From Sipunculus nudus (lineage: Eukaryota; Annelida; Sipuncula; Golfingiida; Sipunculidae): a stretch of 64,000 nucleotides of DNA. Both the position numbers and the translations under genes were made by a program. How positions within the stretch are numbered: position 1 is the stretch's first letter; every line of letters begins with the position of its first letter. The stretch covers positions 64,895,176-64,959,175 of the forward strand of contig CM049316.1 in assembly GCA_026874595.1 (NCBI GenBank), given 5' to 3'. The notes under the pieces were generated by a model. It saw nothing but the letters and a program-made list of their open reading frames with translations. It had not been told where the DNA came from and did not search any database. This document shows positions 2,429-41,056 of the stretch, in pieces.

Positions 2429-2429
2429 T

Positions 2430-7209: not shown

Positions 7210-7340
7210 CTAGTAGTAAATCATATAAATTGCAGAACATGCCACAAGAACGGACACTGTGGAGCCCCTGTTCAGACCAGGAGATTGGTTGCTTGGTGAG
7301 TCTTTCACTGGTGACATCTTTGTTGTCTTTGGGTGGTATG
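7210..7340 (-). CDS. Eph: Eph-like exon 8: C-terminal tail and stop
   Basis: Acceptor TTTTGACAG, phase 1 in. It encodes 42 residues, the first part rich in Ser/Pro/Lys (YHPKTTKMSPVKDSPSNQSP), the last 18 hydrophobic (GSTVSVLVACSAIYMIYY), then TAG at 7210-7212. Small residues precede the hydrophobic end, as in GPI-attachment signals. No good donor lies between the linker and the stop. The nearest minus-strand AATAAA after the stop is at 6688-6693. Confidence 0.7.
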
Positions 7341-10300
7341 CTGTCAAAACAAACAGGTAAGCTTTAGTGTTGGGAGTTGCTGCCTTGGTCAGAATTGTTC
7401 ATCAACAACATATTAGTAACTGATGATCAATTTTTAGTCACTTGTAGAAGTGCTGGGAATCATTTGCAGATTTATGATCATCAGTAAATATTAGTTGACC
7501 TCTGAGAGATTTCTGATAAAATATAGACCTGTAAATCTTCTCAATTGATAAACAGGCCTATATTATGGTTAATATATGTAATAACTCTATAGCCCACACA
7601 AATATTTAGTAAGCTTAAGTGTGAATCTATAAGTAAACACAGATTGTTCTCAAGTTTGATCGTATAAATTTGATGATAGCATACATTCAATCATTAAAAA
7701 ACCTAACCTTAGTGAAAAACTCTGTAATCAATTATGGCAATGCAAGATCCAACACCAGATCATCTGCCTCAGCTGACCGATCATTGATTATAATCGATCA
7801 TCTGTCCTAATACTATTGAGCATGATAAAAACTTGTAACCGAGATTCCTGTACCCTTTGGTAGTGTTTCACTGACAGTAAGAGTCCCAGGCTTTTACTCT
7901 CAACAAGTCAAACAAATTTGACCTGAAGATGCATTCAAGATCTCCATGAAATGCCACAGCTCTTGGACAAATCATAATTTTGTGATCTCTATAGTTAATT
8001 AATTAAGTATATTACCAGTAAGCCCATGCTTTACTTAAAAAGACAAACATCTAGATATAATATATTGTTAATAATAAAGGTTTTGTGAGATGCTGTAAAA
8101 CACAAGAATCCATATTATTGCTTCTATCACACTTGATTATATATATATATATATATAAATAAACCTTATTTATTTTAGTATTACATGAATTGCAAATATA
8201 GCTAAAATAACAAATACAAGGCACTCTCCATGGCTCAGATGATAGTATTTTGTAGTCTGTAGAGGTGGAGGAAACCAGAGAAAACCACTGACCTTGGACA
8301 GGCCACTAAAACCCACGCTCATGGCAACTTAAGGGATCTCACAGGGGGCCCTAGTGAAGAGAGCCAAGCGTTGTACCCCAAAACTGTTCAGGCCTATACA
8401 TAGTCCAGGTCTATCTATATATGGTCCAGTCTATGCTAAAATAATAAGTTTTTTTTTTTCAATTTTAAGATATATTCTTTAGTTTTAAGAACAACATGAG
8501 ATACCTGTTTCAACCTCCACAGGCTGTTTAATGATTGTATGCTGATGTCCTGCTGCTCTGTCTCTTGTTTCCCACTCTGAGTGTGAGTGGCCTCGATGGC
8601 TTCCTGAATCCTCATCCCCACCGTCATCTGAAACCACAGAGGTAAATGAGTGCATAATACATCCACAGTATGTCTTGTGACCTTTGACCTTGCTGATTAT
8701 GCAAAGATTTAGCTAAGAGTCAAAATCATTTGAGTTATTTTATTGGTTAATAACCATACTGAATTTTATCAAATTACCTGGTGACCTCTGACCTCATCAT
8801 ATATGTGCATATTTTGCCAAGAATTGAAGTGGGTTGATAAAATTTTTTTGGCAAACATTTATAGTGAATTTCATCAAAATCCATCATATTCCTCCCAATC
8901 ATACTGAATTTCATCAAATTACTTGCTATCACAGCAATACCACAATGAAATCTGATGACCTCTGATCTCATCATAATCCATCATGTTCCTCCAATGTTAT
9001 CGCAGCAGCTCCACAAACAAGCCTGATGACCTCAGAACTCGTGAAAAATATACCGGTATGGATTTTGTTGAGATCTAAACTCAGGCAAGATACTTTGGGT
9101 AAATATCTATAGCCAGTTTCATAAAAATCCATCAAATACTTGGTAAGTTATCTTAGCGACAATAACAGTTAATGGACAGACAAGGGACAGACAGATGGCA
9201 CGAGAGACAGGTGGACCATCGGTATACCATAATATGTCTGTTCATAGACCGGCATATAAAAAGCAGTCTAACCAATAAAAAGTATTAAACTTTCCTTTCA
9301 ATATTAAACTGTTTCAGACCACCATCATTGGGACACCACAGGAGACACTGTAACACTTAACACAGTCATTTACCTGGTAAGGTAGTAACCAGGATTGATC
9401 TAAACGTGTTGTCTCCTGCCTCTCTGCTGACTGCGTTCTGGGCCCACACAAGTATGGTGTACATGGAATCCGGCTCCAGATTACTTATGGTAAGCCTGAA
9501 AAGATGGTGTGATACATGTTATATTTCAAACTTATCAACTCAACATTTAAGCTGAATATGGTTTGGTTTGAAAATATGGCCATATGAGAGCTAATACTAT
9601 CAACAAATGATATAGGATACATCTTTAAGTTTCAGTAAACAAATATAAACTAAAATCAAGGTAACAGGGCGCATACCTCAGCCAAGCCAAAACAATCATA
9701 TTATCACCGGGATGTTTTGGTATTTGTTGGTCTATTGATGAACAGATGAAATCCCAGTGATGTTGCATATATAGATGACAAACTGACAATAACAATTACA
9801 AACTAGAGGTACTGTTGTAAATCTATTTCCTCTTGTGTACAGGAGTAAGCAAATAGTTTTAGAATGAAATACTAGCAGATCGATCCCATAATGTTGTAAA
9901 GAGAAAACATTGTACTTCATGTATATTTAACATTTCAGGCATGTGAATAGGTCCCTTTAAACCAAATTTTGCAAGTGCTCAATGCTCCAACCTCCACACA
10001 GGGTCAAGATCTAATGAGGAGATGATAGGCCCCTGCAATTGCTTGTTCACCCAGCACCCTACTTCAGCGGCCTTGAGGCAACCACTGAATACAAACATTG
10101 TGGACCACATGGACCCATGGCGAGACCACTCGAAACTCCTAGGCTGGATTTGTATTCTCCCAAAACCACCCAAAGATAAGGTGAGGTGTTCCCAGTGGGA
10201 CCCAGACTTCACCCAAGGATCACGCCCATTTACCAAACATGTTTTTTTACCAGGTGCCATGTGGTATTTGTTTGAATACATTAACACTGTCCATCACCAT

Positions 10301-13300
10301 AATGTAGTTCCCCGGGTTTAACAAAATTTCAAATGAAAAGACAATAATAATCTTTATAACCGTTACATTTGGGATTAATGTTGCGAATGCATGTTCCAAT
10401 GGCTTAATTATTGTAATTTACAATTTCCGTGTGCTATAGCTTGATTTTGGCATAAAAGCATGCCCAGTGAATAAATGTATGCAGGAGGGTCATCCTTGAT
10501 ATTCATACACAGACCTTCTGTGTGGAGAGTGTCAATGTTAATGACCTCATAGTAGGACGCATTATCTGATGAAGACAGCAAGGCTTTGAGATTTAATTTG
10601 CACTGGGGTTTTTCCATAAAAATTATACCTTTTGTCATCAGGTTTTTCATGGTGCAAAACAGCGCTGTGACAGCCAACACACTCTGCAGTGTAGGTCAAG
10701 TCAGTCCTTCCACCCAGGGTCAAAGGTTCTGACCAGGTCAAGGTCAGGCTTGTTTTGCCAAGGTCAGAGACTTTCAAGTCTTCTACAGCAGATGGGGGCT
10801 CTGTCAAACAAAAATAAGTATATATCTTTATCAAATATTTTAATCAAATCAAGTGTTTTTACAGAGGGTAAGAGTAATGACAATTTCTGTGAGAGTATCT
10901 GTATATTGGGCCGATTGGGCTGAAATTTTGCACGTTTATACATCTTGGATAGGTTTTCAATTTTTGCGACAGGTGGCGCCACCTACCTCCCCATTTATGC
11001 TCCAAACATTCATGCTAATATCTCAGGACTGGTTTGACGGATCAGCCTGAAATTTTGCATATGTATAGGTCTAATATAGCCCTTTAACATAACAACAAGT
11101 GACCCATAGGTCATGACGCTCAGCTGCCAAGCATGACCTGCGACATCACGGGCTGAGATTCACAACTTCCAGTTAAATTTTGAAGACCCAATTTGCCAAT
11201 ATGTTGAAATTTTCTACGACAACAGAAATATATATCACCTGTGTCTGGTTAAAACACAGTGAATTTATGGTCAGAGGAAAAATATTGATTGTTAAGCTAT
11301 CAGCAACTATTCCCAGAGCTTGCTTGATACCTGTCAGTCTCAAAAGGAACACCACAAATGGCAAATATAAGATCAACATATAAAGCAAAAATCAAGGAAA
11401 ACCATGCAAGAATTATTGAGAAATGGGTGCTTCTGTTTAAATTTTATTTAATACAAGCCAACTGTACTGCACCTGTATAAATGATGGTAATATTTATTAA
11501 GAAATATTTTACACAATCCTTTGCAAGATAAGATTAATATACTTCCAACTGCATTCACTTTAACAGTTCTTGAGATAATATGATCAAAAGGAATATGGTT
11601 GCCTGGTGGCCATATTCAACTTCTGAATGGTCTGAAATCAGACAACAAACATTCTCTAAATTGGATCAAACATTAAAGAAAAATCACTGAAACTGCACTG
11701 AAAAAAAGGATTTCTAAGGTGGCTAACTGGCAGACAAAATGGATTTCTGACAAGTCAGACATTTGATATCACACATCCTCCAATAAGAGACCAAACTTGG
11801 GGCAAATTCTCCAAAGGGTGGTACAGTAATGAATGTCCAAAACAAATCAAAAGGCATGTTAAGGCCCTCATATCAGATTTATAGATATGCAAATGTAAAA
11901 AGTGTAAGTCTAATATTTTTATTATAACTCTGCTTTTCAATGGGGTCAGCAGGGTAGGTAAACTGCAAAACCTGAAAGAAAGGAAATGCAGAAAGCATGA
12001 CTAAGAGTCTTGTAATGAAAAAAAGCCATCCTTAATCCAGGTACATATCCACATATTATGAGAACAAACACTTGCTTTTATATGTGGTGATTTATATATA
12101 AATATTCCGGTATCTAGGAAACTAAGTTTATTGCTATGATTCCATAAAATAAACTGCAAAATTTTCCCATCATCTTATAAATCAGTAGCTAAACCTTAAT
12201 ACTGTACTCTCATAGTCTTAATGGCTGCCTGAAGCATTCCGACAACTGTGTTTTTGTTATGCAGTAACGAGGTACTTATCACTCAGCCTTATCACTTAAT
12301 AGGCTGATACCAAAGGGAGTCATATGTCACCAGTGTCACTCACAATTACAGCGACACAGTGATATGTACCAGCTGGATTGCAATGGTTATACATAAAAGA
12401 AAAATAGAGATGGTCTACAAAATAAGTTATTGCAAACATCCCTGACCAATAACCTTGGCCTTTTGCCCACATATCAACTGGATTCTTTCTAAATGATGGG
12501 TAACCACTTACCACTTAAATCTGGTGTAATTACTTGGCAACCAATGAGTGAATAACTTTGACCTGCAACCTTTAACCTCCTGACCAGCTGACCCCAAAAT
12601 CAATCAGTTATTTCTTCAAGCAAAAAGACCCATAAATATGAAGTTTGGATCAAATTGAGTGATGCATAGATGTGGCATATGTGAAAGACTGAAGGTTTGG
12701 GTTGAACAGTTTCACCAGAAATATGTTCACAAGCATTTAGAACAATTAAGTATTGTGGCCTTGACCTTTGACCTTTTGAATTTGACATCAATAGGCTTCT
12801 TCCCCTATTGGTAGGTAAGCCATATATGTCAGATGGAAGGTATAGATTGAAATGTTTGCCTGAAAATGTCTCCACATTAGAAGAGGGTGCGGTGAACTTG
12901 ACCTTTGACCTGAAAATCAACAGGTCTTTTCCCCTGTTGGCAGAGAATTGATATCAGTGCTGGAAGGTTTGGAATAAAAAGTCCAGCTTGAAATGTGTCC
13001 ACAACCTTTTAAAAAAATATGTTCACAAGCATTTAGAACAATATTGTGACCCTGACCTTTGACCTTTTGAACTCAACATCAATAGGCTTCTTCCCCTATT
13101 GGTAGGTAAGCCATATATGACAGGTGGAAAGTATAGATTGAAAAGTTTGCCTGAAAATGACTCCATGCAAGAAGAGGGTGCTGTGAACTTGACCTTTGAC
13201 CTCAAAATCAACAGGTCTTTTCCCCTGTTGGCAGAGAAGTGATATCAGTACTGAAAGGTTTGGAATGAAAGGTCTAGCTTGAAATGTGTCCACAACCTTT

Positions 13301-16300
13301 TCAAACAAGGGACCCATGGGTCACGGCGCTCAGCTGATCGTGATTGGACTTTAAATGTTTCTCCACTGTGATACTATATCGAGTCAATAAAGCTTATGAA
13401 TATCATGGACATGTTGGGCTATTATAAAGGAATGTAATGTAATATGTGAGTAAATGATAAATGAAATTACCTGACTGATGGATTAATAGAGTAAAATATA
13501 GTGTTTTTTTTTTTATTTATTTAGGAGGGGTTTAAAATTGTGATATATTTGAGCAAATATGAATGCAATGACAGCAATAATAAGCAGTAGTAGAATAATG
13601 ATAGTAGTCTGCAAGCTTTCAATTTGACAGATATGATGTTATGATTAACTATGCTGATGAAGTGATTTATGAATTTGTGACTGTATGACACAATATCTCT
13701 TTAGTCTTGACAAGGTACATTATTGTCATGCCCACTATGTCTACATATTACACAATATTGACATAATTTCTGGCATGTACATAGGTACCTAGGGATGAAT
13801 AGTTATACAAAATATTAAAGTATGAATATATCTGATTCATCTTGTTCTTGCTTACTGAGGCTGACTTTGGGATGGGGTTCGAGAGAAGGGAAAAGTGAGG
13901 GCAGCACGAAGGTGGATGTAGAAATATTCTATTGTAATGTTTTTCATTTATATAAGAATATGAAAAGCTGAGAGGAAAGGGGCCCTCCTACTTAGTTATA
14001 GTAAAGTTCTAAATATATGATTGCAAACTAATACTCTGAGAAGACTGTCATGAAGAAAAACAGTAAAAGTTTTGAGATACTGTGATGCATATGAAAATTT
14101 ACAGATGGACAGGCAAGTGAACAGAATGGACTAATACCTTTATTTCACTTTCAAGGGAATAATGCATTTAAGTTTATATAAAAGCCTATTTTTTAGCATA
14201 TCCACTTTTTCTATTAAGAAGTTTTTATCTGAATCATTTTTTTTAATTACATGTTTTATAAATTTTTAATAAAAAAACTGAAACTATAAGTTAAAATATT
14301 AGAATTGTTGCAAAAATCGCAATCATTATATATACAGAGTAAAAAACTGAAACTATAAGTTTAAATATTAGAATTGTTGCAAAAGTTGCAATCATTATAT
14401 ATCCAGAGTGTAGCTCATATTGGGTCATATTATGCATACACATATATTTTATTATTTTAAATCATAAATGTTTAAACTGAATTTAAAAGAAAATAATGCC
14501 ACAACATGGCATCTACAAGAATATTCCTTGAATCACTATTAAAAAGTTTTGCACATTGGAGTTTTCAGTACATACTTAATTTTATTCACCAAAATAAAAT
14601 AAAAGATTCAGTAAATTTGATAAAAAAAAACATCTTTTCAAATAAAGTATACACACTGTTGGTTGAATGAGGGACAAACAATATCATTGTGCTAATTACT
14701 ATCCCAGTTTTAATTTATTACTGGAATAAATAGTCAATTTCACACCTGGTGAAGTTTTTACTCTTCTGAAGTAAGGAATTACTTATCTCATGAACATCCA
14801 CACTTTCACAGCAATACACCACTTTGTGGACACAATTAAATGTACACTTTAATCATTGTAACCCTGGTGGTCCAATACAAAATCTAAAATGTAGCATGTC
14901 CAAGAATAAAATAAAATACAGAAAAATTATAACATTCATCTAGTTTATGCACCAGCTGGGGGGGGGGGGGGGGATGAGTGCAGGGCAGAGGGGAAGCCTG
15001 CTAGTAGTGGCCAAGCTGGGCCAGGGTAAGCTGCCTGGGGTGGGTTACATAATGCAAGTGAAGGCTGTACTACTAGGTGGGCTAGATGTAAACAACACTT
15101 GACATGGTGTATGAAAACATGAATAAAAGCTATTCATTCCAATCAATTTCTTTTGAAAGTTCATATTTTAAAAGATTAAATCCTTATGCATATATGCTGG
15201 GAAAATTAAATCAACAGTGCCAAAGTTGGACAAAATTTAAGGTATTGATTTTTTATTTATGCTAATAACTTGAAAAATTTGCAAAATTCAGATCTAATTT
15301 TGGGTAAACAATTGAATCTTGATTAAATAAAGTTATATTCCTGAAAAAAAGTCTCTAGGTTCAGCAATTCTCATGTTAGGTGAGTAAATATATTTCCTGA
15401 TTTTTTTAAAAATTGCATTATGTTTTGGCCCATAACTTCAAAATAATACCCAATACTGACCTTATTTTTGGTATGTTCATAGAAAATGTATAAAAGAATG
15501 GGAATACTAAATACGATCAAAAACAGATCAGTGGTTTTGATATTAGGCAGCCTTGAAGTGTAACAATGGCTTTTTTTTATGGAAAACGGAGTTTTTTTTT
15601 CCTTAATATCTCGAAGGAACAAAGTCCTAATGACCCAATTTTCGGTATGGTAGGAGATTTTGGGGACATCTAAAATTATGTCAACAGCCTGGGGAGCATA
15701 GAGATGTGCACTGAATGACCTACAGTCATCAAAGTGGACTGCTTGACAATGTAAGGGAATACAACAAGAGCCTCCAAAAAAATTCAATAACTAGCCTAAT
15801 TTTGCAGCTTTTATTTTCAGATTTTAACAGATTAAATCCTTATGTATACATGGTGTGAAAATTAAATCCACAATACTTACAGGAAAAAAACGTGCCATGG
15901 CCAAAGTTGGGCAAAATTTAAGGTACCAATTTTATATTTTTGCCAATATTTAAAAAAATTTAACAAATTTTGATCTAATTTTTGGTATTCAATTAAATTT
16001 GGTTAATTAAAGTTGTATTACTGGAAAAAAGTCCCTACCTTTAACACTTTTGGCCTTTAGTGACCAAATATCTTCCTGATTTTTTTACAAAGTCCATTAT
16101 GTTTGGGCCCATAACTTTTTTAAATTATATAATACTGACTTAATATCTGGCATGTACATAGGAACTATATAGAGGAATATTTATGGTAAATATGAAGAAA
16201 ACCAGATGAGTGGTTTTGATATTAGGCAGTCCTGAAGTGTGAAAATAGATTTCTAATAAAAAATTGAGGTTTTTCCTTAATATCTCATAAGAACGAAGTC

Positions 16301-25300: not shown

Positions 25301-28300
25301 TGAGGCTTTTCAAAGAAGTTGGTTCTGTGACCTTGACCTTTGACATTGTGACCTCAAAATAATTATGGTTCTTCCCCTGTTGGTAGGTGAGCTGTATGTG
25401 AAAGATGGAAGGTTTGGGATGAAAATTTTGGCTAAAAGAATTATTTCTGGGGGGTGCAAAAACACCCCATAACTTCGAGAATATAGGTCGCAGTGACCTA
25501 ATTTCAGGTTTGCAAGGAGATCTTTTTAGAACCTCTAAGACTGCATAGGGTTCATGGCCCTAGCCCCTATGGTTACGATTTGTGCCCTGCTCACGGACGG
25601 ACAAAGACCCATTGCTATAGCCCAGCATGACTGAAAGTCAGCTGAGCTAATAAAACATGGCTATTAATTCCCAAGCTAGTATCTATTGAATGTGAAAGCT
25701 TAAGTGACATGCATCAGATACTCTATAGTATATTAATTAGGCTTCCACAAGGATTGAAGGGCAACCCAATCCTTACACTAAACACTTGGGTTGTTGTTGT
25801 AAAATTTGAGTAAAACACTGAAATACTGGCTTGCTTCATCTTCATGGGGGTTGAATTTTTGTGATTTTCTCATTTTCAATGTTTCTCAAGGGTTTCATTT
25901 TTGTGATCTTACCATACATTATCTTCACAGAGTACAATTTTTATATTAAAAATATAAAATAGTGAATAAATTGTAAAAAGCAAAAAATTGATATTATGAC
26001 TAATTATAAATATTGTATGTTAATGTTTGTCTAAGATTGGTTTGGTACTTATTCAGATTTTTTAATTATCTGTCAATAATGAAAGTTTACATATACATAT
26101 TCAATATTCTGATTATTCACTAGGATCCCTGTCCAAAGTAATACATATTACACATATTACTTAATAATAATATAATTCAATCATTAACTGATGGATAAAC
26201 ATGTGTTGGTTATTGTCAGATCGCGAAAATTGATCCCTCGTGAAACAGTGAAAAAAATGAAAATCACTAAATGTTTACCTCGCGAATATAAAGCTAACCA
26301 CAGTATAATATCTGATATGATTTACAAAACAGACGTTTGATTTACATGTAACATGAAATTTGTTATAATTATTGTTATCAATATTTTGTCTTTAGACATT
26401 TTTACGGTACAGGTATTGATTACAGACAGGAGTGGCCAAAGAGTAGAAATGACTGTTTTCCTTTGTATTTATTCACGAAGGTTTATTTTCCCGATAATTT
26501 CTGCTTCATAAAAATAATGAATCTGTAACCCTTGTGAACAGAAAGCAAACTGCAGTATGTAATTACATGAGTACATGATACATTAAGGCAGTACTTATTA
26601 CTGATGTATGTAGTACCCTGTGGTAGGACTGGAGGTAAACTTACGAGTACAAGGTGCACTTGGTAGATCAGATGAGGCTCTGTAGTATTTCTCATCACAC
26701 TGACACCAGATGTCACCACTGAGGAACGAATGGCTGTGCTCTGGACAGGCTGAACAACCATGGTTTCCTACATCTGCTTTGAATGTTCCCGGCTGACAAG
26801 CTGTTTATGAGTAAAATATAAATAGAATTACTGATACCTACAGAAATTCTAGTGGTCACTGCATGAGGCTATCGGTACCAGAGACCCTGGCACATGGTGG
26901 CTAGTAGTGTGCTCATTGCTGGTAGAAAAGGCTAGATTGAACTGTATAGATTACTCTTGACATTTCATCTGACATCATCCAATGGTATAAATAGTGTATA
27001 TATTGGAGGCTCAATGTATAATGAAGCTGGTGTTGGCTGAGATTAATGCTATCTGTTATATTGCTTGCTGTTCATAGCAACTCTAAATAAACGCCATTCA
27101 TTTAATTCCTAAGACACATATTCACTACAAACATGACAAAATGACATAATTTAAAAATAAAATCTGAAAACAACTTAAATCCCAAAGCTGCTTCAAATGT
27201 CAATAACTAGTCTAAAACCTTATTGAATATGCCTTCAAATTCAAGGATGATCTTTTTTTACAAATAGTCAAAAGACATTTAATAAATACTCTCAGTGTAG
27301 GAGCTAAAATGAAAAAAAAAAAAAAAATTTTATTACAACCATCCAAGAGATAAAAAAGTTTTGAAAATTATGAATCTTTGATAAAACTAAAAACAAATCT
27401 GAAATATGCCAAACAGGTGGCTTGCCAATACTTTGAGATATTCTTCCAGAAGTCATGGATTACCTTGTGCAATACAAAAACATTTTCTCAGTCAGGGGTA
27501 CCAAAACTTTTTTGTTACCTTTTTCAAGTACTTTTTTGGTTGGAGTTACTATCTCCGTTTGGTAATGCTTACTAAATGTAGTATATGTACATCTGCAGAT
27601 TGCCATTCAAGTTTCTGACTACATGACAGTGCAGAATCACATGCTTCCTGTCATTTTATATCTTGATGTTAACCAGGCCTGGTGACTACTGCACCTGCAG
27701 GCCCTGGATGCATAATTGTCCCCATTGCTGGGTCATACCACCCAGGAACCCCTGAAATTTGTGATGGAAACAGAGCCGTTGGGCATGGCCTTCCCATTAA
27801 GCCTGTAGAGTGCTCACTCTAGGTGGAGGCCGATCATGAAAAATCTCACCGCCTCGGCTCATATTCTTACTCTTTATCTCCCTGCTTTGAGTCCTGTGCT
27901 CTACCACCGAGCCACAAAACCAAAAACTTACCTGTACATGATGGCTGACTGTCTGTGACTGTCCTCTCATATCCCTTCATACAAGAACAACCTCCTTCAG
28001 GCGTCACCCAATCACCATTTGATCTACACAGAGAACTGGGTGGTACATCCGCTTCTGCATGGAGAATACATTTCCCATATGCCTTCACTGAACCTGCAGC
28101 AGCGCCCTCTACTGGAGTCTCAGGAAACACTGCAAGATTTTCCTGAATTTGAGGACACTGCAGGAAGTGTACTTCAAAACTGATCAAGGCTGAACACACA
28201 GATTCAAACCTAAAACTGAAGTAGACACCATTTTCCTGGATTTCCACATGCCTCGTTTCATGGTAGATTGGTATCTTCTCATGGTTGAATGTTTCATTTT

Positions 28301-31300
28301 TTGGTGTAATTACATCAAGCAGTTGATAATTATCCATACCCCAGCCGGGATGAACTACAGAATCGTTATAACCGTCTGAACCTAAGTAGTACAACCTGAA
28401 TTCATTTTTACACCCTACGCAATGCCTCATGGTGAATCTGATATCAACTGTTAGATTGTGGCCTTGTTTTCGTGGAATGAACGGGGATCGTATCCAGTGG
28501 ACTGCTGTTGTGTTGACATCACACACTGAGATAGTTCTGATAACAGACTCTTTATCATTGTATGACCCTTCATCCATCTGAAAGAACAGTGGGATGGAAG
28601 TCTTGTTCAGATGATAATATATATATCATACTTATCATATGTTCATTATAATAAGATATTCATATTATAAGATACTGTGACATTTGAAAGGAAAGCTCAT
28701 CAATAATTTTGCTGATGCTGCATACCTGTACTCAAATATACTGCTTGTTACACAATCTTAAATTATACATAAAATCCCTTACAGTGATACAATCTCAAAG
28801 TGCTTTTGAAAATGTCATGATTCAAAGCATTGGTATTATTTCATTTCTTTGGCTGTCATAATTCCATATCTCATAATATGATACTTATCGTCTTATTTTG
28901 TTTAAAAATCAGATACAATCCATGGTTTAATATTATGACCAACAGTAAAGAGTTTCTCCATTATCCGTGAAAGATATCCTTATTTCTGACTGATACAACC
29001 TGCTATTTATGCATTTTCCCCTTCAACTTTATTTTAGCCAATTTAAAATAAAAACAAGGGACCTATGGGTCACTGTGCTCAGCTGACGTTAACATTGAAG
29101 GTAAAAATCTAAAATAATATCAAATGGAGATAAAGTGTAAGAGGAAGAGGTAATAAAGGCCATGGTTGGTTTATATGATTGGTTTGTATTGATGAGCAAG
29201 AAATTGTTGCAAAAAATATTTTGTGACCTGGCCATGTGTTTCCTAATGTTGAAACTAAAGCATGCGAGCAGTTTGTGAACAAATGATCTGTATTATTACC
29301 ATGATCATTAGTTGGTTTTTCGATTAACTGTTGACATTTCAGTAGTTTACACATTTGTTCAATTGAATCTATTTTTTTGTATAATATATATTATTAAATA
29401 TATGTATTTTTTTATTATGAAATGTATACAGTTGAAATATAGCACATATTTAACAACAAAAAACAGGGCAAACAAAGCCTGATCTCAAATTCTGCTGAGG
29501 CAGGAAAATAATGAACAAATGTTTGTTTTAAATCCTCATTTTTTTATCACATCAATATATATCTGAATATAAAAGTTGATTCATAATTCTCAATTGCATC
29601 ATCATAAATCTCAATCTTGTCAGATAACACCACATCATGCATACAAATGTTTATTTATTTTTTACCACAAAAATATATCTTTTAAATCTGCAAAACAATA
29701 AATATCTAAAAATAATACTTGATTTAGATTTCACAATTTTTAATTGTGTCTTTATTTATCCATAATGTGCTTCATATTTTATAATAATTTAAGCATACTG
29801 ATGGGTTCAATTATATTTGTTAAAATCATTTAAAAGAAAACTGATTTCTTTAAAAATGCTACATTACACAACATTGCATCTTCTGGATTACACCTTGAAT
29901 TATTTTTTTCAAGGAAAGTTTTTGCATATCGGAGTGGAAACAGCATTACAATTAAGGAGATACAGTGAAAACAATAACAATTACTGCATAACACTTGGTG
30001 GGTTGGGTTGCAGGGGGGGGGGGCGGGGGGGGGGGGGTTGATTGGGGTGGTGATATGAGAATAACTCTACACCTGTCACAGCAGGGGATCTCCCTCAATG
30101 ACTGTAACAAATCAGAAACCCTGGCATAGCTGACTTCCAGTGACCTGGAGTGGGACCCTGCATCTGTAATCAAAGCAAGTGACTACAGAAAAAAAAATCA
30201 ATAAGGCCCAAAAAAATTAAAGGTATGGTTCTCAGGCACCGCCCGCATCAATTTTAAACCCCCGCATCAAAAATTTTTATTTTGATTTTCAATAAAAACT
30301 TTCCAATTTTGAGCTGCTACCGCTCCGACATTTCTTTCAAGAAGATAAAACCATATAATTTCCTTTGTTTTGTAGTGCTTTTACTTATTTACAAAAATAA
30401 AACTGTTATTTTCATGCTTTTCCCTTATCATTTGACATTTCTATAGAAACATACCAAAAAATTTAAAATAAAAAAAGCGCCCGCCCGCATTGATTCCCGA
30501 AAAAAAGTGCCTGAAAACCATACCTTTTTTTTATTTTGGCCTAACTAGCTTAATTTTCAAGCTTTTATTTTCAAATTATAAATTTACATTTACAAACTAA
30601 ATATTTATGTTTACATGCTGTGAAAATTAAATCAATGGTGCTTACAGGAAAAAAACGTGCCATGGTCAAAGTTGGGCAAAATTTAAGGTACTGATTTTTT
30701 TTTTATGCTAATAACTTAAAAAATTTACAAAATTCAGATCTAATTCTGGGTAAACAATTGAATCTTAATTAAAAATAGTTATATACTTGAGAAAATACTC
30801 TAGTTTCCAAATTTTTCATGTTAAGTGAGTTATTATTTTTATTCTGATTTTTTACAAAGTCCATAATGTTTGGGCCCATAACTTAAAGAATTTATACTTT
30901 ACAGACTTAATTTCTGGCATGTACATAGGAACTATATAGAGGCATATTTATGGTAAATATGAGGAAAAACAGATGAGTGGTTTTGATATTAGGCAGTCCT
31001 GAAGTGTGAAAATAGGATTTTAATAAAAAATTGAGGTTTTTCCTTAATTTCTCAAAGGAATGAAGTCGCAAAGACCCAGTTTTTGGCTTGGTAGGAGATC
31101 TTGGGGCTATCTAACATTATGCTGAATTTTGGATTCCTAGGTCTTACGGTTTCAAAACGTGCCACATCTACGGACGGACGGACGGACGGACGGACGGACA
31201 GACGGACGGACGACGGACAATGGACCACGACTATAGCTCAGATGACTTATAGTCAGCTGAGCTAAAAATTAAGTTTATTATTCAAATCAAAATTAGTTAC

Positions 31301-34300
31301 CTTTTCTTTATGTGCAGTAGAATAGTTGGCCCAATCTGACAATGAACTTTTCTCTATGCTATCATATAAAACCACTCCTGTAAAACAAATGTAAATTAAC
31401 ATTAGAAAACATAATTTTGTGTTTGTACCATCCTGTCATTAGTTCTAGTAAAGCACTAAAATAATGGTACTGTTACAAGGTCATCTTGTGTATGTTCACT
31501 TGTAACACAGGGTGAGAGAGACACAAGACAAGACTGGTAGACACTTGACTTTATTCCATATCAACTAAGCATGTTGTTACAGCAGCAGGGTGGTCTCCCT
31601 CTCTTGTGCTGTCTCTGTGATTCTCTCTGGGAGAACTGCACACCATGCAAAACTTCTGACTCAAGAGTTTGGAATGACCTTCTCCATACATATTCATTTA
31701 CCCTTAGTTTGTCATTTTAAAAGAATCTGATTGGTGACCTAACACTGAATTGTGTCAATGTTGATGTTAGAATATTTTCATCTTAATCACATGGCTTTTT
31801 GGAATGTGGTAAAACAAGAGTTCTATTCTGCGATTACTAAACCAGACGTAATTGTACTCATCTCACTTGACATAACAAATATCACCATCTGAACAACATT
31901 TATAATAATGCCCTGGCAGGTTCAAGTCAGAGTGACATCAGTGGATTATGATTACTGTCACTTTGTAGGTCTTTATGAAAACATTACAGGGGAGGCTAAA
32001 TGACTGGGTGGTTACTTCAGTTCTCTTTTTAATCAAACTCCTGGAACAAAGCATATCTCTGTCTTTCTGAATATCAGTCCTCATTAATCTTGGATACCTT
32101 CTGAATGAAATTTAGAAACATTCCTTTAAATATTTCTTAAGTCATAAACATGCCATCTCCTACTTCATTACATATTTACTTGTTATATATAGCTAGGGAC
32201 ATAGAAATCTACTAATTTAAACTGAATATTGATGATTAAAATCAATCAGCAGTTGATAGGCATCATGATATGACAAGTGAACAATTATTTAAACAAGGGA
32301 CCCATGGGTCACGGCGCTCAGCTGATCGTGATTGGACCATAAATGTTTCTCCACTGTGATACTATATCGAGTCTATAAAGCTTATGAATATCATGGACAT
32401 GTTGGGCTATTATAAACGAATGTAATGTAATATGTGAGTAAATGATAAATGAAATAACCTGACTGATGGATTAATAGAGTCATATATAGTGGTTTATTTT
32501 TTATTTATTAAAGAGGTGTAGAAAATTGTGATATATTTGAGCAAATATGAATGCAATGACAGCAGTAATAAGCAGTAGTAGAATGATGATAAGGCTATTT
32601 GTTGAAGGATCTAAAGTGTATGGGAGTCTGCAAGCTTTCAATTTGACAGATATGATGTTATGATTAACTATGCTGATGAAGTGATTTATGAATTTGTGAC
32701 TGTATGACACAATATCTCTTTAGTCTTGACAAGGTACATTATTGTGATGCCCACTATGTCTACATATTACACAATATTGACATAAATTCTGGCATGTACA
32801 TAGGTACCTATGGACGAATAGTTATACAAAATATTAAAGTATGAATATATCTGATTCATCTTGTTCTTGCTTACTGAGGCTGACTTTGGGATGGGGTTCG
32901 GAGAAGGGAAAAGTGAGGGCTGCACGAAGGTGGATGTAGAAATATTCTATTGTAATGTTTTTCATTTATATAAGAATATGAAAAGCTAAGAGGAAAGGGG
33001 CCCTCCTACTTGGTTATAGTAAAGTTCTAAATATATGATTGCAAACTAATACTCTGACAAGACTGTCATGAAGAAAAACAGTAAAAGTTTTGAGATACTG
33101 TAATGTATGAAAATTTACAGATGGAAAATTTACAGATGGACAGGCAAGTGGACAGAATGGACTAATACCTTTATTTCACTTTCAAGGGAATAATGCATTT
33201 AAGTTTATATATAAGCCTATTTTTTTTAAGCATATCCACTTTTTCCATTAAGAAGTTTTTATCTGAATCATTTTTTTTTTATTTACAGGTTTTATAAATT
33301 TTAAATGAAAAAACCTGAAAATATAAAATAAAATATTAGAATTGTTGCAAAAGTTGCAATCATTATATATACAGAGTAAAAAACTGAAACTATAAGTTAA
33401 AATATTAGAATTGTTGCAAAAGTTGCAATCATCATATATCCAGAGTGTAGCTCATATTGGGTCATATTATGCATACACATATTTTATTATTTTTTAATCA
33501 TAAATGTTTAAACTGAATTTAAAAGAAAATAATGCCACAACATGGCATCTACAAGAATATTCCTTGAATCACTATTAAAAAGTTTTGCACATTGGAGTTT
33601 TCAGTACCTGCTTAATTTTATTCACCAAAATAAAATAAAAGATTCAGTAAATTTGATAAAATAAAACATCTTTTCAAATAAAGTATACACACTGTTTGTT
33701 GAATGAGAAACAAACAATATCATTGTGCTAATTACTATCCAAGTTTCAATTAATTACTGAAATTAATAGTCAATTTCACACCTGGTGAAGTTTTTACACC
33801 TCTGAAGAACATCCACACTTTTATAGCAATACACCACTTTGTGGACACAATTAAATGTACACTTTAATCATTGTAACCCTGGTGGTACAATACAAAATCT
33901 AAAATGTAGCATAGCCTAGAATAAGAATGAATCACATACAGAAAATAATAACATTCATCTAGTTTATGCACCATCTGGGGGGGGGGGGGAGGGAGTGCAG
34001 AGCAGAGGGGAAGCCTGCTGGTAGTGGCCAAGCTGACCCAAGGCAAGCTGCCTGGGGTGGGTTACATAATGCAAGTGAAGGCTGTACTACTAGGTGGGCT
34101 AGATGTAAACAACACTTGACATTGTGTATGAAAACATGAATAAAAGCTATTCTTTCCAATCAATTTCTTTGAAATTTCAGATTTTAAAAGAATAAATCCT
34201 TATGTATATATGCTGTGAAAATTAAATCAACAGTGCCAAAGTTGGACAAAATTTAAGGTATTGATTTTTTATTTATGCTAATAACTTGAAAAATTTGCAA

Positions 34301-35761
34301 AATTCAGATCTAATTTTGGGTAAACAATTGAATCTTGATTAAATAAAGTTATATTCCTGAAAAAAAGTCTCTAGGTTCAGCAATTCTCATGTGAGTAAAT
34401 ATATTTCCTGATTTTTTAACAAACTGCATTATGTTTTGGCCCATAACTTCAAAATAATACCCAATACTAACCTAATTTTTGGTATGTTCATAGAAAATGT
34501 ATAAAAGAATGTGAATCCTAAATACAATCAAAAACAGATCAGTGGTTTTGATATTAGGCAGCCCTGAAGTGTAACAATGGCTTTTTTTATGGAAAACAGA
34601 GTTTTTTTTCCCTTAATATCTCGAAGTCCTGAACAAAGTCATAATGACCCAATTTTCGGTGTGGTAGGAGTTTTTGGGGACATCTAAAATTATGTCAACA
34701 GCCTGGGGAGCATAGAGATGTGCACTGAATGACCTACAGTCATCAAAGTGGACTGCTTGACAATGTAAGGGAATACAACAAGAGCCTCCAAAAAAATTCA
34801 ATAACTAGCCTAATTTTGCAGCTTTTGTTTTCAAATTTCAGATTTTAACAGATTACATCCTTATGTATACATGGTGAAAAAATAAATCCACAGTACTTAC
34901 AGGAAAAAAACGTGCCATGGCCAAAGCTGGGCAAAATTTAAGGTACCAATTTTATATTTTTGCCAATATTTAAAAAAATTTAACAAATTTTGATCAAATT
35001 TTTGGTATACAATTAAATTTTGATTAATATAAGTTGTATTACTGGAAAAAAGTCCCTACCTTTAACACTTTTGGTCTTAAGTGACCAAATATCTTCCTGA
35101 TTTTTTTACAAAGTCCATTATGTTTTGGCCCATAACTTTTTTAAATTATATAATACTGACTTAATATCTGGCATGTACATAGGAACTATATAGAGGAATA
35201 TTTATGGTAAATATGAAGAAAACCAGATGAGTGGTTTTGATTTTAGGCAGTCCTGAAGTGTGAAAATAGATTTTTAATAAAAAATTGAGGTTTTTCCTTA
35301 ATATCTTAGGGGAACGAAGTCCTATTGACCCAATGTTTGGCATGGTAGGAGATTATGGGGACATCTTACTGTGTGCCGAAATTCAGATTTGTAGGTCCAA
35401 CGGTGTCGAAACGTGCCAGTCTTACGGACGGACATCCAGACGGACAGACGGACGGACGGACGGACGGACGGACAGACAGAAGGATGGACGACGGACAATG
35501 GACCATGACTATAGCTCAGATGACTTATAGTCAGCTGAGCTAAAAATTTATATCAGAATACACATAGAAGTGAACAGCATAAAGTAAATAAGGACAAATA
35601 TACAGTACATCATTGCACAAAGTAAAGATAAAATGTCTTTACATGTAAAGAAATGGAACATTACCTCATTGCACTGATTTCCCATAAACTTGAAACTTAT
35701 GTAAAAGGTATATATGTAAATATGTGTATATGTATGTCCATGTATATAAGCACTATATCAT

Positions 35762-35811
<50 letters not shown>

Positions 35812-38800: not shown

Positions 38801-41056
38801 GACCAACATTGGCATAAAATTTGGTGATGATAGCTACAGCCGTTTCTGAGATTTAAATTTTAATATGCTTTTTTGCACAGTTAACAAAGTTCCAAAAATC
38901 TCCGAACTGGAACCATTTGAACAAACTTGAGAAAGATTGTTCCAGGGATCATTTCTGTGTAATATTGGACAATTTGGTTGGACAGTTTCAGAGAAGAAGA
39001 TTTTTAAAGTTTCTTTTAGCTTTTTCCCTATAAAATCTAAGAAAATGCAGTTAGAAAAAAATTTAAACAAAATCCGATATAGTTTTTTGGATGACTGATT
39101 ATTTGCAAAAAATTTGGTGATGCTAGCTCCTGCCATTTTTGTGATAGCTATGGTTAACGTACAGACGACGCACGACAGACAACCCACGACGGACAACGCC
39201 GCACCATCGCATAAGCTCACAGGTTCGCTAAAAATATATATATATATAGTGATCAGAAATGTCAAGTTGCTTTGAATGAAAGCTAAATCCAAAATAATAC
39301 AGCTTCAAAACATGACATGTCGAGAGTGTCACATCTTTTTTACATAAACTGATATATATTTAATGATACCTCACACTTTGTAATATCCACAAGAGCATTT
39401 GATTTTTCACACTTTTGTTTTTTATATGTTTTCATAGTGTTGTTTATATTTATTTTGGACTTAAAAACATGCTAGCCATGATAATGTTTAAAACTGCCAG
39501 CCATGATAATATGACATACAGAATGAACCAAGCAGAGCCAACTGTTCTATATGGTAAAAGCTGTCAGAAGTTTCCAGCTTTGTTACAAAATTCTAAGTAT
39601 TTGCCAATATAGATAATTTTTTAGCGCTGTCCTGATACAATATTTTTATTTAATTTCAAATGATCTATTACCATATATATTAATAAAATAAGGCATGAGG
39701 AGACCCAATGATGTTTAGAGTATCTATAATGATCCACTAATATTTGATAAATCAACACATGCTCAAAACATTGTTCTGTGAAAAGATTATGACTGAACGA
39801 GCGCAGATATGAATTATTCAATGTGATAATGGATATACAATGTGTTGGTTACTTCAGGGTAATATCGTGAAAATAGAACCACTGCAAAACAATGAAACGC
39901 TGAAGAGCAGAAAATATTAGCCTCAAGGAAATGTGAAAGGAAACCACAGTATACAGAGCCACAGGCCACTGTCTTAATTTATCTAGAGGATGGAGCACAT
40001 ATAAATTGTAGATGTTGTACTTGTTCCGAGTACTTTTGACATGGCCTGTTGTTGGTGCGTGTCCAAGTGAGTAGCTGTGATTGTTTCAGCCACTGATGTG
40101 CATGTGTTACATCATCACTGCTGTGAGTGTCCTAATTACCTGACCACTGGTTGCACACACTATTGTTTCAGCCTGTACAGTCAGTACGAGGTGCATGTAT
40201 TCATATTTCAGCTGGGTGGGCCAGGAGGTTAACAGTGTCTACCATTTGTATGTGTTCCATCCACCAGATAAATGAAGGCAGCCGCCTGTGGCTCTCTGTA
40301 AACTACAGAACCACACCAGAATACAGAGCCATAACCAATTACAGAGCCACACCAAACTACAGAGCCACAACAGACTAGACAACTAAGCCACAACCAGGTC
40401 TCCTTCTTAAATCATCTTAATTTAAAAGCCCCTGAACTTAATAGAAGCCTGGAAATTTCAATTTAGGACTCTTTTCCTGTCATTTGAACTATACTCTATT
40501 TTTCCTTTAAACTTTAGAAAAGACTTCAACATGTATTCTTTCCAAATGTCAAAAGATAAATTTACAAGCCATAAAACATATTTATATCTTATACATGTAT
40601 GGTACTATAGTATACATTTGGATAACTGAATGGGTCAGTGGAGGTGACATTTTGTCACAAAATCCTGTAAGCTCCATGTCATAGTTAGCTTTAAATGACA
40701 TGACAAAAAATGAGCATGTCACCTCAAAATTTATCTTTGAAATGTGGAGTGAAAGAGGACCTCTTCTCAAGTCAAGTTTTTTTTATGCATGTACCAGTAT
40801 ATTCCTTGTAATGTATAATACAGATATTGTACAAGATTGCATACTAGTATGTTAACATCAGTACCTAAAGTAAATACAGGTAGTGCTATATGCTATTAGA
40901 AAACGTGCTAACTGGTAATATTTAATTACAATTCCCTTCATGAATATTAATTACTATAACAATGCCAATGGAACCCCCAAAATGGCAAAAATACAGTTTC
41001 TTACTTTCGCCTTTGACAATGCTGAAAGCAGCGACAGCCAACATGACACCTGCCAT
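7210..41056 (-). CDS. Eph: Eph-receptor-like protein without kinase domain (8 coding exons, 492 aa)
   Basis: Exons on the minus strand, in order: 41056-41005, 31377-31301, 28577-27932, 26800-26645, 10800-10629, 9495-9374, 8627-8505, 7340-7210. All junctions are GT/AG, phases agree throughout, and the sum is 1,479 nt (492 codons plus stop). Domains seen: signal peptide 1-17; ephrin ligand-binding domain about 19-200; Sushi/EGF-like cysteine-rich region about 205-310; one fibronectin III domain 311-408; acidic and His-rich linker 409-473; hydrophobic tail 475-492, then TAG. Eph receptors bind membrane ephrins in cell-cell guidance; normal ones continue with a second FN3, a transmembrane helix, a kinase and a SAM domain. 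None of these is found in the 7.2 kb downstream. The tail (GSTVSVLVACSAIYMIYY) could be a GPI-attachment signal or a short membrane anchor. Five N-glycosylation sequons lie in the first 130 or so residues. A kinase-bearing isoform using exons beyond the left edge remains possible. The family call is very secure; the natural C-terminus is less so. Confidence 0.88.
8505..8627 (-). CDS. Eph: Eph-like exon 7: acidic/His-rich linker in place of the second FN3
   Basis: A 123-nt exon, phase 1 to phase 1, acceptor GTTTCAG, donor GTATCT. In the phase set by exon 6 it encodes DGGDEDSGSHRGHSHSEWET, then RDRAAGHQHTIIKQPVEVET. No family resemblance is seen. It lies where a second FN3 domain would be expected. 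The longer open frame over this exon is in a different phase and is not used in the model. Confidence 0.75.
8660..9245. repeat. D-family dispersed repeat (GACCTCTGACCTCAT type)
   Basis: Contains repeated 'TGACCTC.GACCTCATCA' and 'TTCATCAAAATCCATCA' blocks and ends in ACAGACAAGGGACAGACAG then GGTATACCATAATA. Diverged copies lie at about 59690-60040 and 62200-62350. It sits between Eph-like exons 6 and 7 and carries a perfect DR1 at 8678-8690. Confidence 0.65.
9374..9495 (-). CDS. Eph: Eph-like exon 6: second half of fibronectin type III domain
   Basis: A 122-nt exon, phase 2 in and phase 1 out, acceptor CTTTTCAG, donor GTAAAT. It encodes LTISNLEPDSMYTILVWAQN, then AVSREAGDNTFRSILVTTLP. This is the FN3 'L.P...Y...V.A.N..S' strand pair seen in Eph receptors. 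It was too short to appear as a long ORF and was found by reading the minus strand. Confidence 0.92.
9975..10320. other. Compositionally distinct block, open on both strands
   Basis: About 300 bp markedly richer in G+C than the surrounding intron, with ORFs of about 100 codons on both strands. No family resemblance, no second copy in the window, and no convincing exon boundaries. It may be a transposon fragment or a captured sequence. Confidence 0.4.
10629..10800 (-). CDS. Eph: Eph-like exon 5: first half of fibronectin type III domain
   Basis: A 172-nt exon, phase 1 in and phase 2 out, acceptor TTTGACAG, donor GTATAA. It encodes PPSAVEDLKVSDLGKTSLTL, then TWSEPLTLGGRTDLTYTAEC, the typical start of the first Eph FN3 domain (PPSA, W..P...GGR.DL.Y...C). 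The open frame runs past the donor into intron. The splice is supported because exon 6 completes the FN3 domain in frame. Confidence 0.93.
10862..11092. repeat. V-family repeat, left part (interrupted by element C1)
   Basis: Holds GGTGGCGCCACC (10972-10983) and 'CAGCCTGAAATTTTGCAT' blocks typical of the V family. It breaks off where element C1 begins and resumes at about 17011 with ACTGGTGGCGCCACCTGC, the expected continuation. Confidence 0.75.
13304..16510 (+). mobile_element. A-family GGGACCC element (copy A), 3.2 kb, nested in C1
   Basis: Starts ACAAGGGACCCATGGGTCAC and ends with a (GGAC)n tract, a hairpin region and a diverged terminus (GTCAGAGGGGCTAAAAA). It is collinear with copy B (32292-35547) over its whole length, including poly-G and an internal 65-bp duplication at about 14280-14410. 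Interior ORFs (for example 15371-15787) are not conserved in length between copies, so it is probably non-coding. Confidence 0.85.
16404..16462 (+). repeat. (GGAC)n-type short tandem repeat
   Basis: Runs of GGACGGACGGAC with variants, just inside the 3' terminus of copy A. Equivalent tracts lie at 31167-31215 and 35424-35496, and inverted at 46905-46922, always at the same place in the element. Confidence 0.85.
17011..18180. repeat. V-family repeat, right part, partly tandem with about 280-bp period
   Basis: The motif CAGGTGGCGCCACCTAC or a close variant recurs at about 17162, 17287, 17571, 17848 and 18110. Between them lie 'CATCCAAGCT.ATATCT.GGAACCGTTTGACC' and 'AAAATTTTGCATGTGTATAG' type blocks. 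Spacing in the right half is 262-284 bp. Perfect GGTGGCGCCACC palindromes lie at 17016, 17164 and 17979. Confidence 0.75.
21247..22467 (+). mobile_element. Tigger/pogo-type element, internally deleted, 1,221 bp
   Basis: Flanked by TA on both sides. Ends CAGTGGAACCCCGCCTTGCG and, reversed, CAGTGGAACCCCACAATTAC. Inside are 'GCGACCACCCCACAATT' type subterminal repeats. It retains the start of a transposase-like ORF at 21971-22162. It is more G+C-rich than its surroundings, suggesting a younger insertion. Confidence 0.88.
21971..22162 (+). pseudogene. Truncated N-terminus of a Tigger/CENP-B-like transposase
   Basis: 63 codons beginning MPLKELSLKDKVALIKAATP, resembling the N-terminal helix-turn-helix of pogo/Tigger transposases and CENP-B (L-x-x-K-x-x-L/I-I). 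No DDE catalytic domain follows within the element, so it cannot encode an active transposase. Confidence 0.6.
25653..26644. other. Intron sequence with an old repeat containing CGCGAA blocks
   Basis: 25840-26310 contains 'GATCGCGAAAATTGATCC' and 'CTCGCGAATATAAAGC' blocks, diverged from text at 39840-39955 ('ATATCGTGAAAATAGAACC', 'AAACCACAGTATA'). Probably an old dispersed repeat. No coding signal. Confidence 0.45.
26645..26800 (-). CDS. Eph: Eph-like exon 4: EGF-like/GCC2-GCC3 cysteine-rich module
   Basis: A 156-nt exon, phase 1 to phase 1, acceptor AAACAG, donor GTAAGT. It encodes CQPGTFKADVGNHGCSAC, then PEHSHSFLSGDIWCQC and YYRASSDLPSAPCT. The cysteine spacing is that of the Eph module with CxxGTF...C..C...C.C....YR, ending in PCT. 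The frame joins cleanly to exon 3 (split Ala) and exon 5 (split Gln before PPSA). Confidence 0.95.
27585..27918 (-). mobile_element. tRNA-derived SINE next to Eph-like exon 3
   Basis: On the minus strand the head reads GTGGCTCGGTGGTAGAGCAC then AGGACTC, an A-box-like start; the B box is degraded. The body (CCGAGGCGGTGAGATTTT, CCTGCAGGTGCAGTAG, CCAGGCCTGG) matches 49846-50195. Its head begins 12 bp after the exon-3 donor. Confidence 0.78.
27932..28577 (-). CDS. Eph: Eph-like exon 3: ephrin ligand-binding and Sushi-like region
   Basis: A 646-nt exon, phase 0 in and phase 1 out, acceptor TTCTTTCAG, donor GTAAGT. It reads as the bulk of an Eph ligand-binding domain: RTISVCDV, then WIRSPFIPR, VDIRFTMRHC, FRLYYLGSD, GVYFSFR and FEVHFLQCP. 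It then passes into the cysteine-rich linker with NGDWVTPEGGCSCMKGYE. Sequons NTT, NLT, NDS and NET are present. The open frame continues past the donor into a tRNA-derived SINE, so the uninterrupted ORF overstates the exon. Confidence 0.96.
28578..29052. other. Intron 2 sequence of Eph-like gene; nothing recognised
   Basis: AT-rich sequence between the exon-3 acceptor and element F. No repeats or coding signal were identified. Confidence 0.4.
29053..31270 (+). mobile_element. A-family GGGACCC element (copy F), about 2.2 kb
   Basis: Starts ACAAGGGACCTATGGGTCAC. Ends with (GGAC)n at about 31167-31215, then TATAGCTCAGATGACTTATA, GTCAGCTGAGC and TAAAAA. Split by a MITE at 30219-30527. Its terminus lies about 31 bp from Eph-like exon 2. 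Confidence 0.82.
30219..30527. mobile_element. MITE with AAGGTATGGTTCTCAGGCAC inverted ends, nested in copy F
   Basis: Left end AAGGTATGGTTCTCAGGCAC; right end reversed AAGGTATGGTTTTCAGGCAC. About 309 bp, non-coding. The adjacent sequence on both sides belongs to copy F, so the MITE is the later insertion. Confidence 0.82.
31301..31377 (-). CDS. Eph: Eph-like exon 2: N-terminus of ephrin-binding domain
   Basis: A 77-nt exon with acceptor TTTTACAG and donor GTAACT, phase 1 in and phase 0 out. It encodes VVLYDSIEKSSLSDWANY and then STAHKEK, matching the opening strand of the Eph ligand-binding domain (V-x-L-x-D-S). A transposable element ends only about 31 bp beyond the donor. Confidence 0.88.
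32292..35547 (+). mobile_element. A-family GGGACCC element (copy B), 3.26 kb, intact ends
   Basis: Starts ACAAGGGACCCATGGGTCAC and ends CTAAAAA. The 3' terminus folds as a hairpin: AGCTCAGATGACT (35513-35525) against AGTCAGCTGAGCT (35529-35541), 12 of 13 pairs. Collinear and highly similar to copy A. No target duplication is evident: flanks are AATTATTTA on the left and TTTATATC on the right. No transposase ORF. Confidence 0.87.
35766..35825. repeat. (TA)n microsatellite
   Basis: About 60 bp of almost pure TA. Similar tracts lie at 46008-46050 and 54319-54400. Confidence 0.95.
36361..36690. repeat. Tandem repeat, about 126-bp unit, 2.3 copies
   Basis: GGCACCACCAGTCTT or a variant begins units at 36362, 36488 and 36615. 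Each unit also holds 'CTGATATATCAAA' and 'AAATAAGCAGG.ACA'. The GGCACCACC text recalls the core of the V and E families. Confidence 0.75.
36785..36968. repeat. Tandem repeat, 32-bp unit
   Basis: The text AGTGAACTCTTGACCTGTAC followed by CTGGCT recurs at about 36792, 36824 and 36856, and again at 36936 after an interruption. Three units are contiguous with a 32-bp period. Confidence 0.75.
37490..39235 (+). repeat. E-family element, split by a 699-bp insertion
   Basis: Contains repeated 'CAGCTTCCCATAACT.AGCCAAAA' and 'CCATTTGAACAAACTT' blocks (about 180 bp apart) and the GGTGGCGCCACCAATACC block. Ends in CATAAGCTCACAGGTTCGCT then AAAAA. Interrupted at 38056-38754. Parallel to 1-650. Confidence 0.72.
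38056..38754. mobile_element. 699-bp insertion with 9-bp target duplication GATGCAGGT
   Basis: GATGCAGGT stands at 38047-38055 and again at 38755-38763; the copy at 1-650 has it once in the same context. The insert is visibly richer in G+C than its surroundings. It starts with a hairpin: ACAGCGCTTTAC (38067-38078) pairs with GTAAGGCGCTGT (38101-38112), 11 of 12. No terminal inverted repeat joins its two ends. ORFs of 60-77 codons on both strands have no resemblance to anything I know. Identity unassigned. Confidence 0.78.
39236..41004. other. Intron 1 of Eph-like gene, right part
   Basis: Mostly AT-rich. At 40296-40378 a text ACTACAGAGCCACA(AC)CA recurs about every 20 bp. At 39840-39955 is an old repeat related to 26200-26310. 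No coding signal. Confidence 0.45.
41005..41056 (-). CDS. Eph: Eph-like exon 1: start codon and signal peptide
   Basis: The ATG at 41056 sits in a strong context (GCGGCCATGG). It opens MAGVMLAVAAFSIVKGE, a short signal peptide with a hydrophobic core, and the exon ends in phase 1 at a GTAAGA donor. The leftover A joins GA of exon 2 to make Arg, followed at once by VVLYDS, the usual start of a mature Eph ectodomain. The phase match and this join decide the start. A longer minus-strand ORF crosses the same place in another frame and has no family resemblance. Confidence 0.82.

Follow-up and report, generated by a model that had tools for sequence, protein, structure and literature searches.

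Eph products that lack a kinase, Ephs in which the kinase is dead, and partial Eph gene models are already in print. EphA7-T1, which lacks a kinase, binds full-length EphA7 and reduces the phosphorylation of the latter (PMC7717530); as that report presents it, EphA7-T1 is produced by splicing from a full-length gene, retains a transmembrane (TM) region, and ends in an 11-residue C terminus. EphA10s, a secreted isoform of EphA10, is likewise an Eph ectodomain product without a kinase (PMC5444747), although its gene also encodes a pseudokinase receptor and, in the account given there, EphA10s is not anchored. EphB6 and EphA10 themselves are Ephs without kinase activity, in which the kinase domain is retained minus its catalytic residues; both have been traced to Gnathostomata (PMC6993872). 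Outside the animals, Eph ligand-binding domain (LBD) proteins have been described in choanoflagellates, and in one species, Salpingoeca urceolata, the LBD occurs without a tyrosine kinase (PMC6485061). These choanoflagellate proteins are described with fn3 repeats and a TM region, and they are not paralogues that accompany a full-length animal Eph. For animals outside the Bilateria, the same source mentions Eph gene models that are partial, and according to PMC6993872, Eph architecture is unchanged within Metazoa. Our search of titles and abstracts in the open-access literature returned no separate animal Eph gene that is ectodomain only or GPI anchored.

Here, we describe a minus-strand gene of Eph type from Sipunculus nudus. 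It lies in a stretch of 64,000 nucleotides (referred to below as the window), which corresponds to C11:64895176-64959175 of the host assembly (1.43 Gb, 153 contigs). Like EphA7-T1 and EphA10s, the predicted product is an Eph ectodomain without a kinase, and like EphB6 and EphA10, it is an Eph for which no kinase activity is expected. Unlike EphA7-T1, it is encoded by what appears to be a separate gene, for which we found no kinase exons. When set against the Eph receptor tyrosine kinases (the vertebrate EphA and EphB receptors and the full-length Eph encoded on contig C15 of the same genome), the gene has the same jelly-roll domain, cysteine-rich region, and first fibronectin type III repeat (FN3-1), with the exon junctions and phases of the C15 gene; however, it has no detectable second repeat (FN3-2), juxtamembrane region, kinase, or SAM domain, and a GPI-type tail stands in their place. 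The reading that we favor, with a probability of roughly 0.6, is that this is a separate Eph gene and an old paralogue of the C15 gene, in which the part following FN3-1 has been swapped for a linker and a GPI signal and whose product would be lipid anchored and kinase free.

Results

The gene can be read as eight exons with compatible phases, which join into a protein of 492 aa. Boundaries were read from the sequence; AG and GT are present at the internal boundaries, the spliced frame is open, and introns reach 15.8 kb. Exon 1 (41005..41056; minus strand, as are all of the exons that follow) supplies the start codon and a signal peptide (MAGVMLAVAAFSIVKGE) and ends in a phase-1 donor. Exon 2 (31301..31377; VVLYDS...W...), a 77-nt splice candidate that runs from phase 1 to phase 0, opens the ephrin-binding domain. 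The domain continues in exon 3 (27932..28577; 646 nt, phase 0 to 1), which was recognized by phmmer, Pfam, and tblastn and which also contains the start of the cysteine-rich region. This region extends into exon 4 (26645..26800; 156 nt, phase 1 to 1), a match to Ephrin_rec_like by Pfam that was also found by tblastn. The two halves of FN3-1 are encoded by exon 5 (10629..10800; phase 1 to 2), identified by tblastn and Pfam fn3, and exon 6 (9374..9495; phase 2 to 1), for which the evidence is a phase-2 intron common to the C15 paralogue. Exon 7 (8505..8627; 123 nt, phase 1 to 1), for which the evidence is the codon score and the splice scan, would encode an acidic and His-rich linker. Exon 8 (7210..7340), the putative last exon, comprises a hydrophilic stretch, a small-residue site, and a 15-residue hydrophobic tail before the stop codon, TAG, a layout that passes a simple GPI rule. 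About 0.5 kb past the stop is a candidate poly(A) signal (AATAAA, 6688..6693, minus strand), a weak candidate given the 11 copies of the motif between the gene and the left edge of the window, over 7.2 kb. The order along the protein is therefore signal peptide, Ephrin_lbd, cysteine-rich region, a single FN3, acidic/His-rich linker, and a tail resembling a GPI-anchor signal. A preliminary description of this DNA had proposed the same series, from signal peptide to linker and stop with one FN3, and the open eight-exon frame and the Pfam matches bear it out.

In the joined protein, Pfam detected Ephrin_lbd with an E value of 4.7e-24, beginning at residue 20, in exon 2, together with Ephrin_CRD (5e-14), fn3 (8e-9), and Ephrin_rec_like (4.5e-5), all four above the curated cutoffs; a genome-wide search recovered Ephrin_lbd at this locus from the DNA itself at 1.3e-19. 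Comparison of Eph stretches with the window by tblastn gave matches to the LBD (3e-31), the cysteine-rich domain (CRD) (9.7e-10), and FN3-1 (2.4e-6), and the closest solved relative of the binding-domain exon was EphB2 (phmmer, EphB2 ectodomain, 1.6e-28). Both Ephrin_lbd and the combination of Ephrin_CRD with Ephrin_rec_like place the ectodomain in the Eph family. The two FN3 repeats that also mark the family are not both present: the joined protein has one, and no second was found in the window or in the 120 kb to its left.

Only two places in the genome matched Ephrin_lbd, namely, this locus and the C15 gene. The two genes have in common an LBD exon that starts in phase 0, a 156-nt cysteine-rich exon with phase-1 edges, a phase-2 intron within FN3-1, and a phase-1 end of FN3-1. 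Exon 2 of the C15 gene was not found by motif search, and the junctions were compared from the start of exon 3 onward. Vertebrate Eph genes are not known to have an intron in FN3-1. The point at which the two genes diverge is the end of FN3-1, where the C15 gene proceeds to FN3-2 and the kinase-less gene to its linker. Across the shared ectodomain, they are 34.5% identical (125/362), with 18 of 18 cysteine columns kept; by comparison with EphB2, part of whose sequence is provisional, the identities are 34.6% (124/358) for the kinase-less gene and 36.4% (135/371) for the C15 gene. An identity of 34.5% points to an old split between the two S. nudus genes, and since the frame of the kinase-less copy has stayed open throughout this long divergence, it has presumably been under constraint. 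The locus very probably represents an intact, old, kinase-less Eph paralogue rather than a truncated model.

To score the outer exons, we trained a codon model on eight of the window's exon stretches, with exons 2, 7, and 8 left out. Exon 7 fell in the top 0.3% among 9,231 open noncoding windows of equal length; exon 8 scored more weakly, in the top 5.8% among 8,179 such windows, and the score of exon 2 was unremarkable (top 20% among 22,726). With loose splice thresholds, exon 7 came first among three phase-1 candidates for an internal exon to the left of FN3 and ranked seventh on the whole minus strand, in a candidate list merged by position. With stricter thresholds, no internal candidate remained to the left of FN3, the acceptor and donor of exon 7 scoring 2.9 and 2.3, respectively, against a threshold of 3. 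As for the last exon, the window contains 105 acceptor-led candidates of at least 40 aa (both strands, all phases), two of which pass the GPI-tail rule; of this pair, only exon 8 has a positive coding score. The rule itself is simple and was drawn up with exon 8 already in view. Exon 8 has the correct phase and a fair acceptor, and it places an uncharged 15-residue hydrophobic stretch after a hydrophilic one. Exons 7 and 8 match the genome once each and so are not repeat derived. Searches for relatives in other species gave no match among viral contigs and 11 pattern matches among genome contigs, none of which was a relative. From their sequence features, we infer that both exons are used in the gene product.

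At the 5′ end, exon 1 is the sole start-exon candidate with a donor score of at least 2.5 in the 13.8 kb upstream of exon 2 (45200 to 31378) and one of 3 with a score of at least 1; the threshold that was applied first, a donor score of at least 3, yielded no start-exon candidate in the same 13.8 kb. Exon 2 ranked first among 12 splice-compatible candidates and was accepted on visual inspection, and it was absent from the best 15 hits of a homology scan with five Eph N termini.

The missing domains were sought at three scales. Within the window, Pfam was run along the three minus frames of positions 1-14402 and returned only an FN3 half (E value, 0.054). Of the three plus frames at positions 1-7210, two were scanned and gave no match. 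No credible kinase (best E value, 0.37), SAM domain (best, 2.3), or second FN3 was found in the window by tblastn, the best FN3-2 match (0.55) being FN3-1 itself. The left flank was then covered over 120 kb, as twelve 10-kb stretches, with six Eph queries at an E value of ≤0.5, and gave no match to a second FN3, a juxtamembrane region, a kinase, or a SAM domain. As a positive control, the same six queries detected the LBD, CRD, FN3-1, FN3-2, juxtamembrane, kinase, and SAM exons of the C15 gene. The juxtamembrane region of that gene, for example, was found at 1.4e-10, and no counterpart was present in the window or the 120 kb to its left. The TM portion of the query had no match in either the flank or the C15 control, so that homology is blind to the TM helix; in the 492-aa model, the sole C-terminal hydrophobic stretch is the one that finishes at the stop.

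Genome-wide, a search with the Eph kinase C-lobe (150 of 194 first-look candidates scored; matches with an E value of ≤0.001 listed) found its best place in the C15 gene, at 73% identity, with 67% in the next exon there. The next five places by E value were all on contig C4, at 45 to 47% identity, and the one that was checked is ROR-like; shorter and weaker matches, with up to 69% identity over 32 residues, lay away from this locus. A query made of the C15 N-lobe and SAM domain (49/49 candidates scored) matched C15 and, more weakly, other contigs, with no match on C11. Among the matches listed, the nearest kinase on C11 was at 55.25 Mb, some 9.6 Mb off (E value, 5.2e-4). Eph-type kinase and SAM matches were thus confined to the C15 gene, with 150 of 194 candidates scored in the case of the kinase; a very diverged second kinase is possible in principle. 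The preliminary description had reported the kinase, second FN3, and SAM domain to be missing from the model and from the 7.2 kb downstream, and the absence now extends to the 120-kb flank and to the genome-wide searches. It had also raised the prospect of a kinase exon to the left of position 1, which neither the flank nor the genome-wide searches revealed.

To the left of the window, a plus-strand gene has an RPGRIP1 C-terminal domain at its end (4.2e-39, with the end of the profile reached; the score was obtained with three exon pieces joined by eye). The identified part of this RPGRIP1-type gene spans C11 64884942 to ~64888792, with the stop ~6.4 kb left of the window. The gene converges on the Eph-type gene, the two stops being ~13.6 kb apart, and bounds the Eph-type locus. 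More plus-strand exon candidates are present upstream of the RPGRIP1 end and may belong to the same gene. Farther out are two closely similar TRAF-type open frames of 467 codons in opposite orientation, one from C11 64871800 onward (plus strand) and one from 64883548 downward (minus strand); RING, zf-TRAF, and MATH domains were identified in the copy that was checked, and a RhoGEF frame lies between the two.

The binding domain keeps 4 of 4 cysteines as well as R103, which we take to be a residue with meaning for ephrin binding. The residues conserved around the ephrin interface loops are given in PMC6485061, and 6 of 14 further residues of this set are kept in the kinase-less gene, so that the ligand may be bound differently or not at all; for the 12 that fall in the LBD exon, the kinase-less gene keeps 5 and the C15 gene keeps 9. 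These changes argue against taking normal ephrin binding by the kinase-less Eph for granted. Ephrin-domain matches were found at two places in the genome, both on the minus strand of C14. The match at C14:31074573-31074821 spans two stops, possibly at an exon edge; the other is at C14:44324495-44324668. No GPI-like last exon was found within the 10 kb that follow each of these two places. A mollusc ephrin has been described as GPI anchored (PMC6993872).

Several other features were noted. The five tyrosine-kinase places on C4 (18.7 Mb and 58.2 to 58.6 Mb) are uninterrupted frames of 400 to 581 aa. The single one examined most resembles ROR1/ROR2, with a TM-like stretch close to its beginning; the five are possibly expanded, retro-copied ROR-type kinases. 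In the window, positions 45402-45767 (plus strand) hold an exon with an RNase_PH_C domain (1.1e-9), presumably, judging by eye, from an exosome subunit like EXOSC4/RRP41. Strongly coding exon candidates are present on the minus strand at 58893-59234, 61506-61895, and 62382-62585, all three of which belong to the codon training set; the first two had no Pfam match at an E value of ≤0.001. The peptide SGTSPYGHLCTKGTSY is common to the translated frames at 5395-5502 (minus strand) and 51007-51309 (plus strand), which suggests that these places are copies of an interspersed repeat.

Discussion

According to the reading favored here, two short exons, one for a linker and one for a GPI-anchor signal, would replace everything downstream of FN3-1, and the product would be exported, processed, and tethered by a lipid anchor to the outer cell surface. 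The sequence of exon 8, in which a hydrophilic stretch and a small-residue site lead into a hydrophobic tail that runs to the stop, makes a GPI anchor likely, with odds clearly, if not overwhelmingly, in its favor; its C terminus passes the simple GPI rule, albeit one set after the fact. The preliminary description had left the product as either secreted or surface tethered. The predicted GPI-type tail favors the surface-tethered form, and the secreted form is correspondingly less favored.

A secreted product of the same kinase-less gene is the alternative to which we give the most weight, although we consider it unlikely. It would arise if another last exon were used or if the tail of exon 8 did not serve as a GPI signal. 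The GPI call depends on a simple post hoc rule, the coding score of exon 8 reaches only the top 5.8%, and a secretory isoform of EphA10 is on record (PMC5444747); against this, exon 8 combines the right phase and a fair acceptor with an uncharged hydrophobic end of 15 residues, and it has a single place in the genome. It is considerably less probable that the locus is a decaying pseudogene or a fragment of an Eph duplicate. Domains have indeed been lost, and interface residues have changed; however, 492 codons are free of stops and frameshifts, the modeled splice sites are intact, and all 18 cysteines are retained despite an identity to the paralogue of only 34.5%.

Less probable still is a conventional Eph with its kinase encoded to the left of the window, for which exons 7 and 8 would form an alternative, short 3′ end. 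Introns in this gene do reach 15.8 kb, and vertebrate Ephs make truncated isoforms (PMC7717530), but the 120-kb flank is devoid of kinase, FN3-2, and SAM matches under conditions in which the positive control worked, the Eph-type kinase and SAM domain map to C15, the nearest listed C11 kinase is ~9.6 Mb away, and a convergent gene bounds the locus. We reject this arrangement on the strength of the flank and genome-wide searches; only a strongly diverged kinase or a loss from the assembly would rescue it. Misassembly, in which C11 would fuse Eph ectodomain exons to unrelated sequence, is just as improbable, for even though the assembly is in 153 contigs, the contig in question spans 79 Mb, the 120 kb examined contain no N, no second Eph kinase was found elsewhere as the lost half, and the phases fit across the joins of exons 6, 7, and 8. 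With an open frame, conserved cysteines, and a flank free of N, both decay and misassembly were judged unlikely.

If the gene is a separate, lipid-anchored Eph paralogue, its retained jelly-roll domain would bind ephrins or a diverged ligand, and the protein would have no kinase of its own through which to respond. The preliminary description had suggested an ephrin decoy or a reverse-signaling ligand, and three modes of action can be envisaged. The protein might sequester ephrin away from the kinase-bearing Eph, it might enter Eph clusters as a nonsignaling member and thereby dilute them, or it might act as an adhesive or reverse-signaling ligand toward ephrin-bearing cells. EphA7-T1 offers a precedent for the mechanism, and a dominant-negative or adhesive action may be supposed. 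A more specific proposal, and one that we regard as evenly balanced, is that of an Eph built like an ephrin-A, that is, GPI anchored, kinase free, encoded by a dedicated gene, and kept for a very long time beside one full-length Eph. If this is true, an Eph-ephrin pair that lacks a cytoplasmic part on both sides would be possible, and such a pair could serve in adhesion, in ephrin sequestration, or in purely reverse signaling.

On this evidence, beside the one full-length Eph that was detected, this animal appears to keep a separate, ectodomain-only Eph gene. Should this be borne out by transcripts and by relatives, Eph action independent of a kinase would be the sole job of one gene rather than that of a splice form. 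Loss of the kinase-less gene alone would then probe ephrin sequestration, adhesion, and reverse signaling in an invertebrate whose Eph-ephrin set is small.
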